Source of the DNA: a virus
Length of the DNA: 20,105 bases
IMG/VR virus record: IMGVR_UViG_3300042879_000273
Location: 1 to 20,105 of that record
Direction: 5' to 3' (one strand)
The notes beneath the pieces are model-generated. The model saw nothing but the letters and a program-made list of their open reading frames with translations. It was not told the origin of the DNA and did not search any database. This document shows positions 7,810-14,098 of the stretch, piece by piece (within the stretch, counting starts at the first letter, position 1; each line of letters opens with the position of its first letter). The position numbers and the translations under genes are program-made.

Positions 7810-7840
7810 GGTCTTCTTACTCTTTAGGCTTTTCCTCTTC
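7789..7840. terminator. Imperfect inverted repeat at the meeting point of the two gene blocks
   Basis: The 3' ends of the two facing genes form a quasi-palindrome. The outer 8 bases, GAAGAGGA (7789-7796) and TCCTCTTC (7833-7840), match perfectly. The core AGTAAG (7805-7810), five-base loop, CTTACT (7816-7821) also matches perfectly. A competing stem is AAGAAG (7801-7806) with CTTCTT (7813-7818). On the minus strand the core hairpin is followed by TCTTTTT, and on the plus strand by CTTTAGGCTTTT, so it could weakly terminate both blocks. The stem is A/T-rich, so strength is uncertain. Confidence 0.5.
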
Positions 7841-8377
7841 AATTGTTTCAGTGGAAATGTCGTAGGACATATCTACTTCTTCAATGTCGTCGGACGCAGA
7901 CATCTCTTCGGTGTCTTCATCCGGCGACATTTCTGTTTTGGAAGCTTCTTCATCGTCCGCAGACATGGAAAAGAAGCTGCACTTCATGAGGATACGCATG
8001 GCGCGTTCCTCTCCCAAGATCTCAAGGCTCCTGACGATATCCTCTTCAAGATCCTTGATGCTCTTGGGGTTCTCTGTCTCAATGCCATCCTTGACTTTGG
8101 TGAGAAGCTCTAGAGCCTTTAGGGCGCTCTGAGTGTGGTTATTGTTCTTGGCATACTCGTACTGCTTCTCAATCTCAAGGATAACATCGATGTCAGTGAC
8201 GCCAGTACTGTCTAGCTCTGCAATCCGAGCAATGATGTCTGGGTTCTTGAGAAGCTTGCTACCGGTAACGCTAGCAGATATCTGAGAGTATCCGGCAGCT
8301 TTTGCCGAGGCTGTAGCGTTGCGCGTTACAAGGTAGTTTCGTACAAACTTCTCATGCTTTTCCTGTAGCTGTGGCAT
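7817..8377 (-). CDS. terS: Terminase small subunit (Terminase_2-like)
   Basis: A 186-residue protein whose first 60 residues follow the small-terminase pattern: QEKHEKFVRNYL, then NATASAKAAGYS, then GSKLLKNPDI and ARIAEL. This is the DNA-binding helix-turn-helix part that recognises phage DNA and recruits the large subunit for packaging. The middle (70-140) is helical and could form the ring. The last 50 residues are strongly acidic and Ser-rich, possibly flexible. The ATG lies one base after the stop of the upstream fusion gene, with only a distant AAGG, so translation is probably coupled. No large terminase gene is in the window. Placement is odd: as in T7 it neighbours the holin gene, but here on the opposite strand. 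Confidence 0.85.
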   Translation of the reverse strand: MPQLQEKHEKFVRNYLVTRNATASAKAAGYSQISASVTGSKLLKNPDIIARIAELDSTGVTDIDVILEIEKQYEYAKNNNHTQSALKALELLTKVKDGIETENPKSIKDLEEDIVRSLEILGEERAMRILMKCSFFSMSADDEEASKTEMSPDEDTEEMSASDDIEEVDMSYDISTETIEEEKPKE

Positions 8378-8378
8378 G

Positions 8379-10685
8379 TCAAGCTGCTACCTTTGGAAAG
8401 TACTCTGAGTAGTACTTCTTCTTTCCGTGATACGACTTGTCGTATAGCTGGGAGACCAGAGTGTCCTTTCCGTGAAAGTGGATGGTCATGTCGATTTCCT
8501 TGTTGTCAAATAGACGCTCGCAATCCTGAGCTAGTGCTAGAAGCTCTCCAGTAGTCCAGAAGGACTTGCCGTGACACTCTACGGGAATGTACTTCTTTCT
8601 ATCGTCTTCAAGCTTCTCATTCTTCATCTCTTCAGCCATATTTGGGATCGAAGCATCAAACCCAAAGAGATGGAACTGACGGAAGCCGACAATGTGGAAC
8701 ATGCCGATAGCCCGCATGGCAGAGCAAGTACCGCCAGTTACAAAGGTAGCATCATCGCCTAGATCAAGTTTTGTCTCGACGGTGAAGTTCTTTGGGTTGG
8801 CTGCTTGCTGGATAGCCTCCGAAAAAGCATGCCAACCGTAGATGTTGTCTGTCTTCTCCATCAAAAGCTTTGTCACGCTTGTGTCGGTCATTGATGCCAG
8901 CAGGAACTTGGTCTCCTTTTGGATATCCTTGAATAGTTCAGTACGTACAATGCCGTGTGTAGACGTACCAGTAACTGGTCGTGGATCTAAGATCACGCAA
9001 GCATACGGAACAATCCCATTCTTTAGGAGAGTTGGGTAGCTGTGCTTGACACAGATAATCTTTGAGTTGTGCCTCCTTGAGAGTTCCTTTACCTTCTCAA
9101 AATCGGTGGACGGACCAGCAGAGACGATGATGGCATGCTCGTCATTGGTAGTGTACTTTCGCACAAACTTCCAATCCTTGATAAGCTTCATGTTCTCCTT
9201 GATGTTGTTAAGGATATACTCTTTTGGCATGCTGTCCCTTGGCTGCACAACAATCGGGACCATCATGATATCCTTGCGGATATCCTCAAGTTCCTTGTTG
9301 TTCAGAAGGACAACCAGATGGGTAATGCCTCCACCCTTTACCTTGTCAGTCGAAGGTACAACTGCAATGCGCTTGCCTTCATCCTTAAGCTTCTTGAATA
9401 ACCTGTTGGTGCCTTGATGTTCTTCGCCTAAGATCTTTCCATCAGCATCCTTTGAGAAGTAATCGTCAAACACGATGACTGGGACATTTTTCAGGTTCTC
9501 ATAATCGGACACTACGGTAGTCTCGCTGTGACCACCATCAATGTATGCAAAGTCAATTGGTGGCAGATTTGCAACACTGTTGGTTAGTGTTACCTTTGAG
9601 TCTCCCTTGTGGAGTTCACAGGTAAAGGTCTTGCCCTTCTCCTTCATCTTATCAGCAAACTGCATTAGACGCTCACGAATAGCATCGATTGTGTTATGCC
9701 TCTTGGAGTTCAGTTCAACCTTGTCTAGCTCCTCCGTGGCCTCTTCGAAGAGATCATAGCCTGTGTAGTGAACGTCATCAAGCGTCTCAAAGGCAGCTAG
9801 GGACATCTCAATGGCTCTACCGCCATTCCAAGTCCCAACCTCTACGATGTGAGCCTTCTTGTCGTCCTTCTTGCCTACGTACTGTCGGACTAGATCCGCA
9901 AGCTTCTTGTATCTACTGGCCCTGACATCGGGAGCTACTCCAGTTGGTGCATCCTTCAGGTTGCCTTTGAAGTGGACCATGTACTGGCTTAGTGGAGACT
10001 GTGCGAATGCTGCAAGCCCTACGGCATTGGCAGAAAGGTTTTGTACGTGTGCACCATGAGCTTGGTAGATCTTCAGGAGACGCTCAAAGATAAAGCCATC
10101 ATGCCATTCCCTGTAGGCTGTAACCTCTCCAATGTCATAGCAGCCACGAAGATCAGCAAGAAGAAATGGACTGACATTCTTGTTGAACATGTTAAATGCA
10201 ATGAAGGATGTTTCGCTGTAGTCAGCATCCTTCCGACCTAGATGAACAATGTCTGCATTTCTGGCTAGGATCTCTAGGAGCTTGTCCTTTGAGAACGGCT
10301 TTGTCGTAATAGTGTCAGCATCAAGCCAGCACAGCCAGTTGCCATGCTCTACAGTCTCATCGTACAGAGCATACTGCGTAAGCGCGTAGACCTTGTGACA
10401 CCACTTGACTGCATCCAGACGCCAGTTGTACGGGGTCTTTCCACCCATCGTGCCATCGTACGTCTTCATGCGCTCACGGTAAGAAAGCATGGGCTTGACT
10501 AGATTGAGGTTCCTGTACTCAATCTTAGGTGAAGATGGAAAGTCATTTACTGTCTCAGACGAGCAGTCGTGGAAGTACGCTACAAGCTTTAGATCATCCT
10601 TCCAGTTCTCTACGACAGAGAGAAGCATGTTCTTGGCATACTTCTTGAAACCTTCTTCGCTAAACGAAGTTACAAATGTAATCAT
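8379..10685 (-). CDS. Three-domain fusion: glycosyltransferase, methyltransferase, DUF115/MptE-like
   Basis: A 768-residue protein with three recognisable parts. Residues 1-240 look like a GT-A fold glycosyltransferase with LDADT at 121-125 giving the metal-binding D-x-D, and HDGFIFERL near 195. Residues 275-460 are a class I S-adenosylmethionine methyltransferase of the Methyltransf_24 kind: VEVGTWNGG (281-289), an acidic residue after strand 2 (YDL, 310-312) and AYIDGGH (380-386). Residues 515-680 match the DUF115/MptE-like fold: IIVSAGPSTDF near 520, ILDPRP at 565-570, VTGGTCSA near 650 and LFGFDAS near 675. The ATG at 10685-10683 overlaps the preceding stop as ATGA. An upstream in-frame ATG at 10763 would only add the translated 33-bp repeat, so I reject it. 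Substrates are not readable; a role in building or decorating a glycan is inference. Confidence 0.85.
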   Translation of the reverse strand: MITFVTSFSEEGFKKYAKNMLLSVVENWKDDLKLVAYFHDCSSETVNDFPSSPKIEYRNLNLVKPMLSYRERMKTYDGTMGGKTPYNWRLDAVKWCHKVYALTQYALYDETVEHGNWLCWLDADTITTKPFSKDKLLEILARNADIVHLGRKDADYSETSFIAFNMFNKNVSPFLLADLRGCYDIGEVTAYREWHDGFIFERLLKIYQAHGAHVQNLSANAVGLAAFAQSPLSQYMVHFKGNLKDAPTGVAPDVRASRYKKLADLVRQYVGKKDDKKAHIVEVGTWNGGRAIEMSLAAFETLDDVHYTGYDLFEEATEELDKVELNSKRHNTIDAIRERLMQFADKMKEKGKTFTCELHKGDSKVTLTNSVANLPPIDFAYIDGGHSETTVVSDYENLKNVPVIVFDDYFSKDADGKILGEEHQGTNRLFKKLKDEGKRIAVVPSTDKVKGGGITHLVVLLNNKELEDIRKDIMMVPIVVQPRDSMPKEYILNNIKENMKLIKDWKFVRKYTTNDEHAIIVSAGPSTDFEKVKELSRRHNSKIICVKHSYPTLLKNGIVPYACVILDPRPVTGTSTHGIVRTELFKDIQKETKFLLASMTDTSVTKLLMEKTDNIYGWHAFSEAIQQAANPKNFTVETKLDLGDDATFVTGGTCSAMRAIGMFHIVGFRQFHLFGFDASIPNMAEEMKNEKLEDDRKKYIPVECHGKSFWTTGELLALAQDCERLFDNKEIDMTIHFHGKDTLVSQLYDKSYHGKKKYYSEYFPKVAA

Positions 10686-11539
10686 GATTGCTTGCTCTCT
10701 CCCGTGTACGCTTTCCTTAGACGTTCCCATTCGTCCGTGTACGCTTTCCTTAGACGTTCCCATTCGTCTGCGTAAACACCGTCAATGTCTCTGGAAGGAC
10801 GCCAGTTAGGGTATACCGGACCTCCTGTTGTGAAGTGTACGATTGCTGGGTCAATTGATGGGTCGGAATGACCATCAAGCCAATTCCACTTGTGGTCAAA
10901 GCCATGAATAAGGCTTTCGCCGTAGGACAGATTGTACTGATCTGGATCCGGTTTTCCTATGAATGGCTCGTCTAGCCAAGTAAAGCTGTGTAGCCAACTC
11001 CCAGTTCGGTAGTTGACGTTTGTAACATCAAGGGACTTGTTTGCTTCGTGGTTGCAGTTAAACATCATCAAGGATGACCAGTTCTTCCTGAAGTACCTTG
11101 TCTGTGCAACTCCATCCATCTTGACTTCAGCAGTAGGATTGTAGTCATGCTTGACACATCCAATAGCTTTGTCCATTGGGAAGGTCTCAAATAGCTCAGC
11201 AATATCCGCGCGAGCGTACATGTCGCAGTCCATGAATAGGACTAGACCCTTGTGGTTCTCAATATACGGCTTGTAGAAATGTTCAAAGAGGACTGGTGTC
11301 AGGAATCTGGTAAAGCTGAACTCCGTAGAGAATGGCTTTCCGTCGATTACGTCAATGTTCTGTCCGTTTACCTTTTCACTCTTTCTGTAGTACAGGGTTA
11401 GATCCCTAAGTTCCTTCTGGACAATAGGCTGAACCATAAGCCTAGACTTTGAAAGCTTGTGCAAGGTACTCTTGAGTACTCTTGTGTAGATTGCCTCTTT
11501 TGGATCGTATCCAATGAGGACAGTGTAGGTATTAGACAT
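10682..11539 (-). CDS. Glycosyltransferase (GT-A fold, GT8-like)
   Basis: A 285-residue enzyme predicted to move a sugar from a nucleotide donor. It starts with a strand (YTVLIGYDP) typical of sugar-nucleotide binding. It has MDCDMY at 103-108, where Asp104 and Asp106 form the D-x-D metal site, followed by NWSSLMMFNC (153-162) and IVHFTTGGP (233-241), the late His region seen in GT8-like enzymes. AAGGG at 11546-11550 sits 6 bases before the ATG at 11539, which decides against an in-frame TTG at 11542. The C-terminal tail contains DEWERLRKAYT twice in a row, the product of a perfect 33-bp tandem repeat. It overlaps the fusion gene by four bases, so both are likely made together. Acceptor unknown. 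Confidence 0.85.
   Translation of the reverse strand: MSNTYTVLIGYDPKEAIYTRVLKSTLHKLSKSRLMVQPIVQKELRDLTLYYRKSEKVNGQNIDVIDGKPFSTEFSFTRFLTPVLFEHFYKPYIENHKGLVLFMDCDMYARADIAELFETFPMDKAIGCVKHDYNPTAEVKMDGVAQTRYFRKNWSSLMMFNCNHEANKSLDVTNVNYRTGSWLHSFTWLDEPFIGKPDPDQYNLSYGESLIHGFDHKWNWLDGHSDPSIDPAIVHFTTGGPVYPNWRPSRDIDGVYADEWERLRKAYTDEWERLRKAYTGESKQS
10702..10768 (-). repeat. Perfect 33-bp tandem duplication at the glycosyltransferase gene end
   Basis: Units 10703-10735 and 10736-10768 are identical over 33 bases, and one flanking base (10702) also fits the period. The unit length is a multiple of three, so the glycosyltransferase stays in frame and gains a second copy of DEWERLRKAYT. Identity without a single change suggests a recent event. 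Confidence 0.95.
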
Positions 11540-11555
11540 CAATCACCCTTTTGAA

Positions 11556-11636: not shown

Positions 11637-12038
11637 TCAGTTGATATCAAGCTTCTTTGCGTTCTTCTTTTCTTGATCGATGATATCAATCTGAACTCGT
11701 AGGAGACCATTCACGAACTCCGCTGATGTAGCCTTGGAGTTATGTGGAGTAGTGAACTTGCGCTTGAATGGTCTGCGAGCAATGCGACGCTCAAAGTATA
11801 CGTGTTCTAGATTGTGTCCTAGTGTGTCATCCCTTTCAACCGGATTGCCAGTGATAACGAGTCCCATATCGGTGACCTCAATATCAATCTCTTCTCGACT
11901 GAACCCAGCTAGGGCTAGTTCGACATAGAATGAATCTCCCTTTCGATAGATGTTGTAGGGAGGATAGGCTTCTTGATTTAGAGACAGTGGATTCATCATA
12001 GCCTCAATGTCGAAGTCCTTTAGAAGTCGTGTCAGCAT
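11637..12038 (-). CDS. hsp20: Small heat shock protein, Hsp20/alpha-crystallin family
   Basis: A 133-residue chaperone that would hold unfolding proteins without ATP. The alpha-crystallin domain spans about 27-125: YNIYRKGDSFYVELALAGFS with IDIEV (start of the domain), LVITG (60-64), an Arg/Lys-rich strand with FERRI...FKRKF (82-95) and the closing NGLLRV (110-115) carrying the family G-x-L motif. The tail ends LDI, a possible match to the I/L-x-I/L oligomer motif. The N-terminal arm is short. A strong AGGAGG (12048-12053) lies 9 bases before the ATG. The gene stands alone between two structured gaps and has its own sigma70-like promoter right after the reductase gene. Phage Hsp20 genes are known in cyanophages and other marine phages; a role in virion assembly is inferred. 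Confidence 0.92.
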   Translation of the reverse strand: MLTRLLKDFDIEAMMNPLSLNQEAYPPYNIYRKGDSFYVELALAGFSREEIDIEVTDMGLVITGNPVERDDTLGHNLEHVYFERRIARRPFKRKFTTPHNSKATSAEFVNGLLRVQIDIIDQEKKNAKKLDIN

Positions 12039-12169: not shown

Positions 12170-14098
12170 TTATTTTGTCAGGTCTACAATCTCACAGGCT
12201 CCGGAAGCGCAAGCTAGTGTTTGAGTTCCGAAGGTGCTGTCCTCCTTCTCGTAGAGGGACAGTGCAGACCAGTCAATAGTCGTTGGCATGTTCTTCAGCA
12301 TCCTTGTGTAAGTCTCCTCATCGGTATCTTGATAAGGTGCCTGTGGATAGATATGGTCATCGTGAGGAAGAAACGAGATACCAGAGCAGATGTCAAAGTT
12401 CTCGTAGACCCAAGCACCTACAGCCATCCACTCATTGTCCCGTACGTTGATTGTCACTGATGGCTTATGCTCTGTCCAGTTGAGAGCGTACGTCTTCCAT
12501 ACCTCAAGCTGGTCAACAGCAGACATGTCTCGCCTTAGAATTGATCTTTCTGGAGCCTTCATCGGGAATGAGAACACGACAGTATCATTAGGATGGAAGA
12601 CTTCGGGTTCGTTGGGGATTCCGGAGTCCATCATTAGGCGAGTAAGCGGATCTTTGATGTCGCCACGGACAGTACGGACGTAGTAGTCATTGTGCCGTGC
12701 GTGGATGCCGCTAGCAGCGTCAACAAGCTGGCTGACGGTGCCAGATGGCTTGATGCACGTGATAGCTGTCGATTGCTCAATCCCGAGAAGCTCTGACCAC
12801 TTCTTGTTGACTTCTACAGCGCAGTCACGAAGAGACTTAAGCGTCTCTGGGTCTGGATTGGATGTCAGAGGATTGTCCATGATACCCGTGAGAGATACAC
12901 CTAGAAGCCTTTCTTCTTTAGTGTTCTTCTGCCAAACCTTGCGTAGGTAGGGGAAGTTCACAAACGTAGACTGGATTGTCCCAAGGATGGTGGCATTGCG
13001 GATCTTGACAAGTAGATCATCATACGTGTCGGTGCTACGGACAACAACCTCGGTCAAGTTACAGAACTGGTTGTTTCGTAGAATGATCTCGCTGCAAGGA
13101 TTTGTCCCAAAGTCATGATTGGAATCCCTTCGACCATTACGCGCTACGTGTCTCTGTGCAGCATACCTAGCAAAGATACCACGTTCGCCACTCTTGCTTT
13201 CCACAAGGGATAGCCATTCCTTCATGAATGAAGTCATGAATGGCTTGTCGGTGTACACAGCAGAGTTGTTGGCTAGAGTACGCTGTGGGTTTGATCTCCA
13301 CCACTCTCCACTCTTACAAACACGCATACGCTCGTCAGAGAGATCTGACAGGGAGATCATTGCAGATCGACGTACACCACCGACCACAACGACATCTCCA
13401 ATCTTGCACATGATGTCGTGACACTCAATGGAGTTAAGCTTTCTGCCGCTAGCTTTCTTGAAGATGTCAACGACAAAGGAGAATAGCTGGTTCAGAGGCT
13501 CCGGACCACTAGCCCTGCCGCCAAAGGTCTTCAAGCGAGAACCAGCAGGACGGATCTTGGATAGATCCCAAGACGGGATTTCTCCGCTGTAGAGCATGGC
13601 GATAAGCTTGCGAAGAGCCTTTGCCCAGCCTTCCTTTGAGTCATGGACAACGATGACATCGTCGGATGTAAACATCTTGTCCGGCACTTCTGGAAGGTTG
13701 TTGATGGCTTCAGTCTCGACTGAGAAGCCTACACCTGTACCACATAGAAGGATGAACATGGCTTCATCAAAAGACTTGATGTCGTCTACAGCCAAGTAAG
13801 AGCAGTTGTACCCACAAGTGTTGTCTCGCTCCAGAGCAGGACCAGCAGTCATCAGCATTCGCATCGACGGCATGACCTCCAGATTGAAGATTGCCTCGCG
13901 TAGAATGCTGATGGTTTCTCCGCTATTCTTGCCGAGAACGGGGCGAACTACATTGTCGATGTATCGATCAACAGTCTCTGCCCAAGTCTCCCTTCGGTTC
14001 TTGTCCTCTAGCCATCGTGCATAGCGGCTAAGAGCGATAAACGTCTGGTAATCTGTTGGCAAGTACTGTGGCTCGTTAGGGCGATCCTTCTGCTGCAT
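12170..14098 (-). CDS. nrdJ: Class II (adenosylcobalamin-dependent) monomeric ribonucleotide reductase
   Basis: A 642-residue enzyme that reduces ribonucleotides to deoxyribonucleotides for phage DNA synthesis, using a radical from coenzyme B12. NPCSEIILRNNQFCN gives Cys335, Glu337 and Cys346, with the same spacing as Cys408, Glu410 and Cys419 of the Lactobacillus enzyme. Cys99 in NCSYL fits the partner cysteine. The tail LACASGACE gives Cys630 and Cys635, five apart like the re-reducing pair 731/736. KPSGT (450-454) fits the phosphate-binding loop. It is shorter than the 739-residue Lactobacillus enzyme. No separate small subunit or activase is encoded nearby, as expected for class II. A weak GAGG precedes the ATG, and a strong terminator separates it from the upstream genes. 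Confidence 0.93.
   Translation of the reverse strand: MQQKDRPNEPQYLPTDYQTFIALSRYARWLEDKNRRETWAETVDRYIDNVVRPVLGKNSGETISILREAIFNLEVMPSMRMLMTAGPALERDNTCGYNCSYLAVDDIKSFDEAMFILLCGTGVGFSVETEAINNLPEVPDKMFTSDDVIVVHDSKEGWAKALRKLIAMLYSGEIPSWDLSKIRPAGSRLKTFGGRASGPEPLNQLFSFVVDIFKKASGRKLNSIECHDIMCKIGDVVVVGGVRRSAMISLSDLSDERMRVCKSGEWWRSNPQRTLANNSAVYTDKPFMTSFMKEWLSLVESKSGERGIFARYAAQRHVARNGRRDSNHDFGTNPCSEIILRNNQFCNLTEVVVRSTDTYDDLLVKIRNATILGTIQSTFVNFPYLRKVWQKNTKEERLLGVSLTGIMDNPLTSNPDPETLKSLRDCAVEVNKKWSELLGIEQSTAITCIKPSGTVSQLVDAASGIHARHNDYYVRTVRGDIKDPLTRLMMDSGIPNEPEVFHPNDTVVFSFPMKAPERSILRRDMSAVDQLEVWKTYALNWTEHKPSVTINVRDNEWMAVGAWVYENFDICSGISFLPHDDHIYPQAPYQDTDEETYTRMLKNMPTTIDWSALSLYEKEDSTFGTQTLACASGACEIVDLTK

Follow-up and report, generated by a model that had tools for sequence, protein, structure and literature searches.

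Some phages glycosylate their own particles: in mycobacteriophages, for example, phage-encoded glycosyltransferases act on capsid or tail proteins. In bacteria, the nearest described enzymes are the Maf/PseD flagellin glycosyltransferases. Published work describes Maf as modifying the flagellin protein in the cytoplasm (PMC4065374) and places in it a central domain that resembles Cst-II and, ahead of its PF01973 domain, a Rossmann-like domain with weak similarity to methyltransferase motifs (PMC11339370). Here we describe a phage fusion protein that shares with these enzymes, including Magnetospirillum Maf (5mu5), the PF01973 domain type, matched structurally over the whole domain. In contrast to Maf, the phage protein carries a real Methyltransf_24 domain and an extra N-terminal GT-A enzyme, and it ends with the PF01973-type domain, without the C-terminal chaperone-like helical domain. 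Its best NCBIfam match, to the flagellin modification protein PseD, reaches 29.8 bits against a cut-off of 670, and, unlike the Maf/PseD systems, the 11 phage records searched gave no match for a CMP-sugar synthetase. Because the C-terminal domain and the PseD cut-off both fail, we do not class the fusion as a Maf; it may nevertheless work like one.

Pelagibacter phage Mosig (MT647606), a member of the Kyanoviridae with a 141-kb genome, has relatives of the N-terminal glycosyltransferase (GT) part of the fusion and of its GT8-like partner side by side. The pair lies directly after two FkbM-type methyltransferase genes, and a putative sulfotransferase is encoded two genes on. Unlike the fusion, these are separate genes, the methyltransferases are of the FkbM type and tblastn detects no DUF115 match. 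Among the titles listed, a search of open-licence literature found nothing on a phage DUF115/MptE-like glycosyltransferase, and by title the work on Maf and DUF115 is not on phages. Going by its sequences, the family reported here appears to be a large one from uncultured phages, still without a name, that belongs to a kind of system already known.

A three-domain fusion upstream of a packaging gene

The fusion lies in a 20,105-base virus record (the window, by which we mean the whole stretch of DNA analysed; Table 1). An earlier sequence-only reading had given the coordinates and the 768-residue length of its frame exactly and needs amending in orientation: the frame is on the minus strand, and the plus strand there holds many stops. 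The open reading frame can be extended by 26 residues upstream, and the start codon assigned is supported because homologues start at the same position. This codon and the stop of the glycosyltransferase gene ahead of it share the sequence ATGA, and the small-terminase gene begins 1 nt past the fusion stop codon, which bears out the earlier description of a fusion coupled to another glycosyltransferase and followed by a packaging gene. All three parts also share one frame in 24 representative relatives with 45–72% identity to the fusion and, as judged from sequence, the fusion is not a chance frame.

Table 1 Features of the fusion locus in the window
Feature	Coordinates	Strand	Basis
Fusion of GT-A glycosyltransferase, Methyltransf_24 and DUF115 (Maf-like) parts, 768 aa	8379..10685	-	ORF, Pfam, alignment of relatives
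Predicted GT-A glycosyltransferase domain, residues 1–245, DxD at 122–124	9951..10685	-	AlphaFold2 model and Foldseek PDB matches
Putative SAM-dependent methyltransferase module, removable, residues 255–470	9276..9923	-	PF13578 above cut-off at 281–409
DUF115 / predicted Maf-like glycosyltransferase domain, residues 476–768	8382..9260	-	PF01973 above cut-off; model versus Maf 5mu5
GT8-like partner glycosyltransferase, overlaps fusion start by 4 nt	10682..11542	-	phrog_28018; Pfam GT8 below cut-off only
Small terminase subunit, Terminase_2	7817..8377	-	PF03592
Hsp20 family protein, upstream of the GT8/fusion pair	11637..12038	-	Pfam; neighbour only

The remainder of the window seems to resemble part of a podovirus-type genome. 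By Pfam and PHROG matches, the minus strand encodes a family A DNA polymerase, endonuclease I, a B12-type ribonucleotide reductase and Hsp20, and the plus strand an ejection-type protein, an endolysin and a protein of 1,388 aa that has no match. Among the DNA polymerases listed, the nearest belong to Pelagibacter phages HTVC104P, HTVC103P and HTVC115P, at about 46% identity, so the window phage is probably marine. The first 50 of the 54 kb of HTVC104P carry mainly hypothetical genes, and none there is annotated as a glycosyltransferase. The window contains no detected tRNA or Rfam element. PADLOC returned no match for the fusion or for three further proteins, and a defence-system identity for the fusion was rejected. 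At the junction of the GT8-like gene and the fusion, positions 10702-10768 (minus strand) hold a 33-bp tandem duplication in two exact copies, which lengthens the GT8 C terminus by 11 residues; one relative (L002) has a single copy and another (L001) has the longer form.

A large family in uncultured viral genomes

Scanning IMG/VR with a profile yielded 580 stretches, 532 of which encode a relative, and the best 80 of these 532 were read; a second scan with the DUF115 third found relatives in at least 594 of at least 599 matches, of which the best 80 were kept. Domain profiles run on 147 loci recognized 138 frames with GT, methyltransferase (MT) and DUF115 parts, six with GT and DUF115, and four with GT only, namely a gene cut by a contig end (L004), one broken into two frames (L073) and single genes of phages Mosig and ct7QV12. 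We counted as members the frames with near-complete GT and DUF115 parts. There are 141 of these, giving 92 distinct proteins, window included, a number that counts protein sequences and not contigs, as one contig may yield several loci. The 7 of 148 frames excluded were the four GT-only frames and three cut or broken three-domain frames (L060, L070 and L073). In agreement with the domain order read from the window, 86 of the 92 distinct near-full-length proteins have all three domains, and the methyltransferase alone is absent from the other six. Assembly error or frameshift was considered as a source of the fusion and rejected, since 138 frames in the 147 loci hold all three domains in one ORF.

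Large as it is in IMG/VR, the family is almost invisible among deposited phages: tblastn against 50,697 phage records found only the GT part, in two of them (Mosig and ct7QV12), and a two-domain query returned the same two. A pattern search of 84,980 genomes of bacteria and archaea gave 31 matching stretches, two of which encode a relative; the two bacterial MAG contigs concerned look like phage contigs. A search with the L003 protein yielded five loci only. The DUF115 third also matches BFVD entry A0A6J7X5Q0, a 714-aa protein of an uncultured Caudovirales phage named as a methyltransferase-domain protein (E 3e-24, 37% identity, between predicted structures), a structural match that by itself suggests that the three-part architecture has probably already been deposited without a function. 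Two different copies of the fusion lie 55 kb apart, about one genome length, on the 106,894-base contig of L124 (G004), which is possibly two phages joined in assembly. On a Sneathiella-binned contig, the relative at L087:7992-10337 has MNTN in place of the DxD motif and altered methyltransferase aspartates, with the DUF115 motifs mostly kept; because the DxD motif and these aspartates are replaced, this protein may retain DUF115 activity only, a point against the glycan assembly role proposed below.

Predicted structures of the outer domains

Each of the three signatures reported from sequence was located, and in the order given. The first, a DxD motif, lies within WLDADT (residues 120–125), and D122-A-D124 is invariant across a 25-row alignment of the family; the motif is lost in L087. 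In Pfam, residues 1–245 have no match above cut-off, with DUF1647 at E 0.07 only, and no Pfam or NCBIfam glycosyltransferase model matches this region at E ≤ 1. Searching the PDB by sequence, using the single sequence and three profiles, produced just two chance-level ribosomal matches, and structure comparison was therefore required. An AlphaFold2 model of the N-terminal third, built from a 25-sequence alignment (mean pLDDT 88.3), was matched by Foldseek to GT-A enzymes in the PDB, with 320 chains at E ≤ 0.001 and TM-scores of about 0.5. The best match was alpha-1,3-galactosyltransferase 2vs5 (E 1.8e-7), and further matches included xyloside xylosyltransferase 4wlm and glycogenin. The model identifies residues 1–245 as a DxD glycosyltransferase of the GT-A fold.

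The C-terminal third matches PF01973 (DUF115, MptE-like) at residues 491–681 with 61.2 bits against a gathering cut-off of 34.6 and carries the motifs AGPS (523–526), LDPRP (566–570) and LFGFD (673–677); PF01973 likewise exceeded its cut-off in each of 13 records searched. For the model of this third (mean pLDDT 84.3, with the first 17 residues poorly predicted) the best match is Maf 5mu5 (Foldseek E 1.2e-8; Z 19.6 over 229 residues at 3.4 Å), with model residues 22–289 of 303 aligned to residues 244–502 of the 632-residue Maf chain. Methanocaldococcus MptE/HPPK comes second (Z 15.2, 197 residues), and further matches are SteA (Z about 10) and sialyltransferases (about 8–9). The initial assignment to MptE-like DUF115 proteins is thus upheld by Pfam, but the predicted structure is closer to Maf, and because this third lies nearer to Maf than to MptE/HPPK, a sugar transferase appears likelier than a pterin kinase. 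Structure prediction, which had been proposed as a check, therefore returned a GT-A match for the first third and a Maf/MptE-type match for the last, and relatives carry the domains fused and not only as separate genes.

A methyltransferase module altered or absent in some relatives

Between these domains, Methyltransf_24 (PF13578) matches residues 281–409 with 36.3 bits against a gathering cut-off of 26.3, and includes the motifs EVGTWNGGR (282–290) and YIDGGH (381–386). The window protein has all of D383, D407 and D408, which are putative metal ligands by analogy with related sugar O-methyltransferases. Among the 92 distinct proteins this triad reads DDD in 71, is altered in 15 (DNN in 12, and DNG, GDH and GDN in one each) and is absent with the domain in six. 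The methyl capping envisaged from the window sequence accordingly has a real Methyltransf_24 domain behind it but cannot be a constant activity, because the putative metal ligands are altered or the domain is missing in 21 of the 92 proteins. These comparisons identify the methyltransferase as a dispensable module of the fusion. A tree of the methyltransferase domain requires three changes for the NN and NG forms, which fall into the groups L062/L063/L066, L030/L042/L049/L053 and L096 (position unsure), and at least two of these changes are forced by well-supported branches. Three changes, at least two of them forced, are likewise required for the three domainless representatives in a tree of the other two domains, where L088 sits on a very long branch.

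We compared substitution rates with a simple Nei–Gojobori script on pairs with a GT dS of 0.15–1.0, the pairs not being independent of one another. Median dN/dS for the methyltransferase domain was 0.063 in intact pairs (115), 0.090 in altered pairs (15) and 0.137 in mixed pairs (22); the corresponding medians were 0.070, 0.075 and 0.060 for the GT domain and 0.080, 0.053 and 0.072 for DUF115. Altered methyltransferase domains look faster around the change, yet still under purifying selection, which would point to a pseudo-enzyme or to changed chemistry. Because the median dS of mixed pairs is 1.50 for the methyltransferase domain versus 0.76 for GT, exchange of the module by recombination may also have occurred. 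Recurrent changes in a domain under selection offer a natural experiment on the methyl cap or on a pseudo-enzyme role. In one relative, a Methyltransf_23 gene lies directly downstream of the fusion (L003:8490-9173) and L087:10294-10959 is a relative of that gene; L003 and L087 are the two members whose internal methyltransferase has no D383.

Gene neighbourhood and separate-gene versions

As the loci are the best matches to this protein, the synteny counts describe this lineage only: all 92 distinct fusions, each of which has 900 nt or more of upstream sequence, are preceded on their own strand by a GT8-like gene, which overlaps the fusion or lies no more than 10 nt away in 75 and is less than 500 nt off in the farthest case; a small terminase follows on the same strand in 73 of the 75 fusions with at least 700 nt downstream, within 30 nt in 21 and at most 2,058 nt away; and the 62 fusions with at least 4,500 nt upstream have a ribonucleotide reductase in 61, a 2OG-Fe(II) oxygenase in 45 and Hsp20 in 38. 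In 22 of 86 loci, the neighbours include a holin gene. The window reductase (12170-14098) is of the B12-dependent type; many relatives have a shorter large subunit at that place (for example L082:3339-5024 and L019:3683-4654), and a class I small subunit stands beside the shorter reductase subunit in 27 of 86 loci.

Seven loci (L088, L196, L200, L207, L224, L230 and L232) have a second layout, in which the cassette comes after a large frame on the same strand. These large frames span at least 851 to 1,895 aa, some being cut by the locus end, and the reductase is on the opposite strand in L088, L200, L207 and L232. The large frames of L088, L196, L207, L224, L230 and L232 have no detectable relation to the large protein of the window, and we therefore assign these six no virion-gene identity.

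A wider GT search reached at least 80 loci, of which six already known were left out and 74 scanned, three of them (L221, L226 and L229) on contigs already met. Among the matches listed, these 74 loci hold 29 GT–MT–DUF115 frames, 48 GT-only, two GT–MT, one MT–DUF115 and two MT-only, and in this distant set a GT8 gene lies on the same strand within 40 nt of 27 of 31 multi-domain GT frames, again among the matches listed. Two counts speak against a glycan set: standalone GT frames have a GT8 gene within 10 nt in 6 of 48 cases and none inside 60 nt in the other 42, and 4 of the 31 multi-domain frames (L215, L197, L198 and L223) have no same-strand GT8 gene in the locus, L223 starting 178 nt from the locus end.

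Several of these distant loci carry the domains in other combinations. The gene order in L193 is GT8, GT, MT–DUF115, portal: the GT and MT–DUF115 genes overlap by 4 nt, both Pfam domains of the latter are above cut-off, and the portal-type gene (PHROG E 1.6e-13) is directly downstream. L197 and L198 are GT–MT frames with no DUF115 match, and L188 and L192 encode GT and MT as adjacent genes. Among other distant relatives, that of L227 has a nucleotide-sugar epimerase gene nearby and that of L182 a heptose-type nucleotidyltransferase gene, and in ct7QV12 the third annotated gene downstream encodes a large terminase and the fourth a head-to-tail joining protein. Domains that some genomes fuse and others encode side by side usually serve a common pathway. 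Radical SAM/SPASM enzymes with 59% mutual identity are encoded upstream of the cassette at L193:2988-3932 and L215:3862-4794; the gene in L215 occupies the expected GT8 position, and no GT8 was detected there.

A candidate pathway for glycan assembly

Computation shows the three domains, the folds of two of them, a GT8 partner that is almost always present, versions in other phages as separate genes or partial fusions, and neighbouring genes for packaging or the portal. We give a probability of roughly one half to the reading in which the fusion, with its GT8-like partner, forms a glycan assembly set whose acceptor is most likely a virion protein. The GT-A structure match, the Maf-like third and the GT8 partner support the glycan-building role suggested earlier, and we infer a virion-protein acceptor because the small terminase, the portal gene of L193 and the large terminase of ct7QV12 are nearby. 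Timing, step order, donors, acceptor and benefit are set out here as a proposal. The set would act in the host cytoplasm, where one GT-A enzyme would add a sugar and the other extend it, and the Maf-like DUF115 domain would transfer an additional sugar, possibly a nonulosonic acid in CMP-activated form. Such a donor would have to be supplied by the host, given the lack of a CMP-sugar synthetase match in the 11 records. In phages with an intact metal site, the middle domain would then O-methylate the glycan. The product, a short and optionally O-methylated glycan most likely carried on a virion protein, could shield the particle or tune adsorption. Were this correct, many aquatic phages would have glycosylated particles.

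The same enzymes might instead act on the host surface or on a lipid-linked glycan, altering the cell surface so that, for example, other phages are excluded. We consider this rather unlikely, although in Acinetobacter phages are reported to encode enzymes that modify the nonulosonic acids in the capsule of the host (PMC12053666, PMC6586298), and distant GT and GT8 relatives occur within larger phage clusters with sugar-nucleotide genes. Such a role fits poorly with a small terminase downstream in 73 of 75 cases and the portal-type gene of L193, with a lytic-looking layout in which the structural block is opposed to a replication block (integrases lay outside the search), and with the lack of a polysaccharide flippase, polymerase or transporter among the Pfam-scanned part of the neighbours.

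Phage DNA, also named at the outset as a possible acceptor, is disfavoured: that the set adds sugar and methyl groups to a hydroxylated base as protection from restriction is highly improbable. The upstream 2OG-Fe(II) oxygenase (45 of 62) and the DNA methyltransferase label of the top PHROG match to the middle domain (E 2e-5) would suit such a pathway, but the oxygenase is of the 2OG-FeII_Oxy_3 type and 17 of the 62 loci have no oxygenase match. TET/JBP (PF12851) is above cut-off in none of 11 records, which are possibly fragments, in a search that also matched none of 14 control genomes; one sub-threshold match (E 1e-3) falls inside the oxygenase gene of G010. Thymidylate synthase (PF00303) has no match of any kind in the same number of records, again possibly fragments, and the fusion protein has no [DNS]PP[YFW] motif. 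Least credible of all is a fusion working in cofactor or nucleotide metabolism with its DUF115 third as an MptE-like pterin diphosphokinase, for although the Pfam name, the second-ranked MptE/HPPK match and the reductase upstream in 61 of 62 loci are compatible with it, Maf is the better match and aligns over a longer stretch (229 residues versus 197), and a GT-A fusion with a near-constant GT8 partner misfits pterin synthesis.

A broader version of the virion-glycosylation reading joins it to methyl-cap switching and to a shared origin of the Maf front domain, as a viral counterpart of the Maf pathway; taken whole, it is a long shot, if a less distant one than modification of DNA. Aquatic phages would decorate their own particles with a glycan that ends in a host-derived, nonulosonic-acid-like sugar and is made by one three-enzyme chain with its GT8 partner, and repeated mutation or deletion of the methyltransferase would toggle a methyl cap and so change virion surface chemistry. 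In bacterial Maf, the front domain with its methyltransferase resemblance may come from the same MT–DUF115 pairing as is found in phage L193; the split forms put a Maf-like domain outside flagella and bear on the origin of Maf enzymes. Upstream of the glycan pair, one relative encodes a 2OG-FeII_Oxy_3 oxygenase (L028:5113-5685), a gene not among the window genes scanned, and an enzyme of this type could hydroxylate a protein residue ahead of glycosylation.
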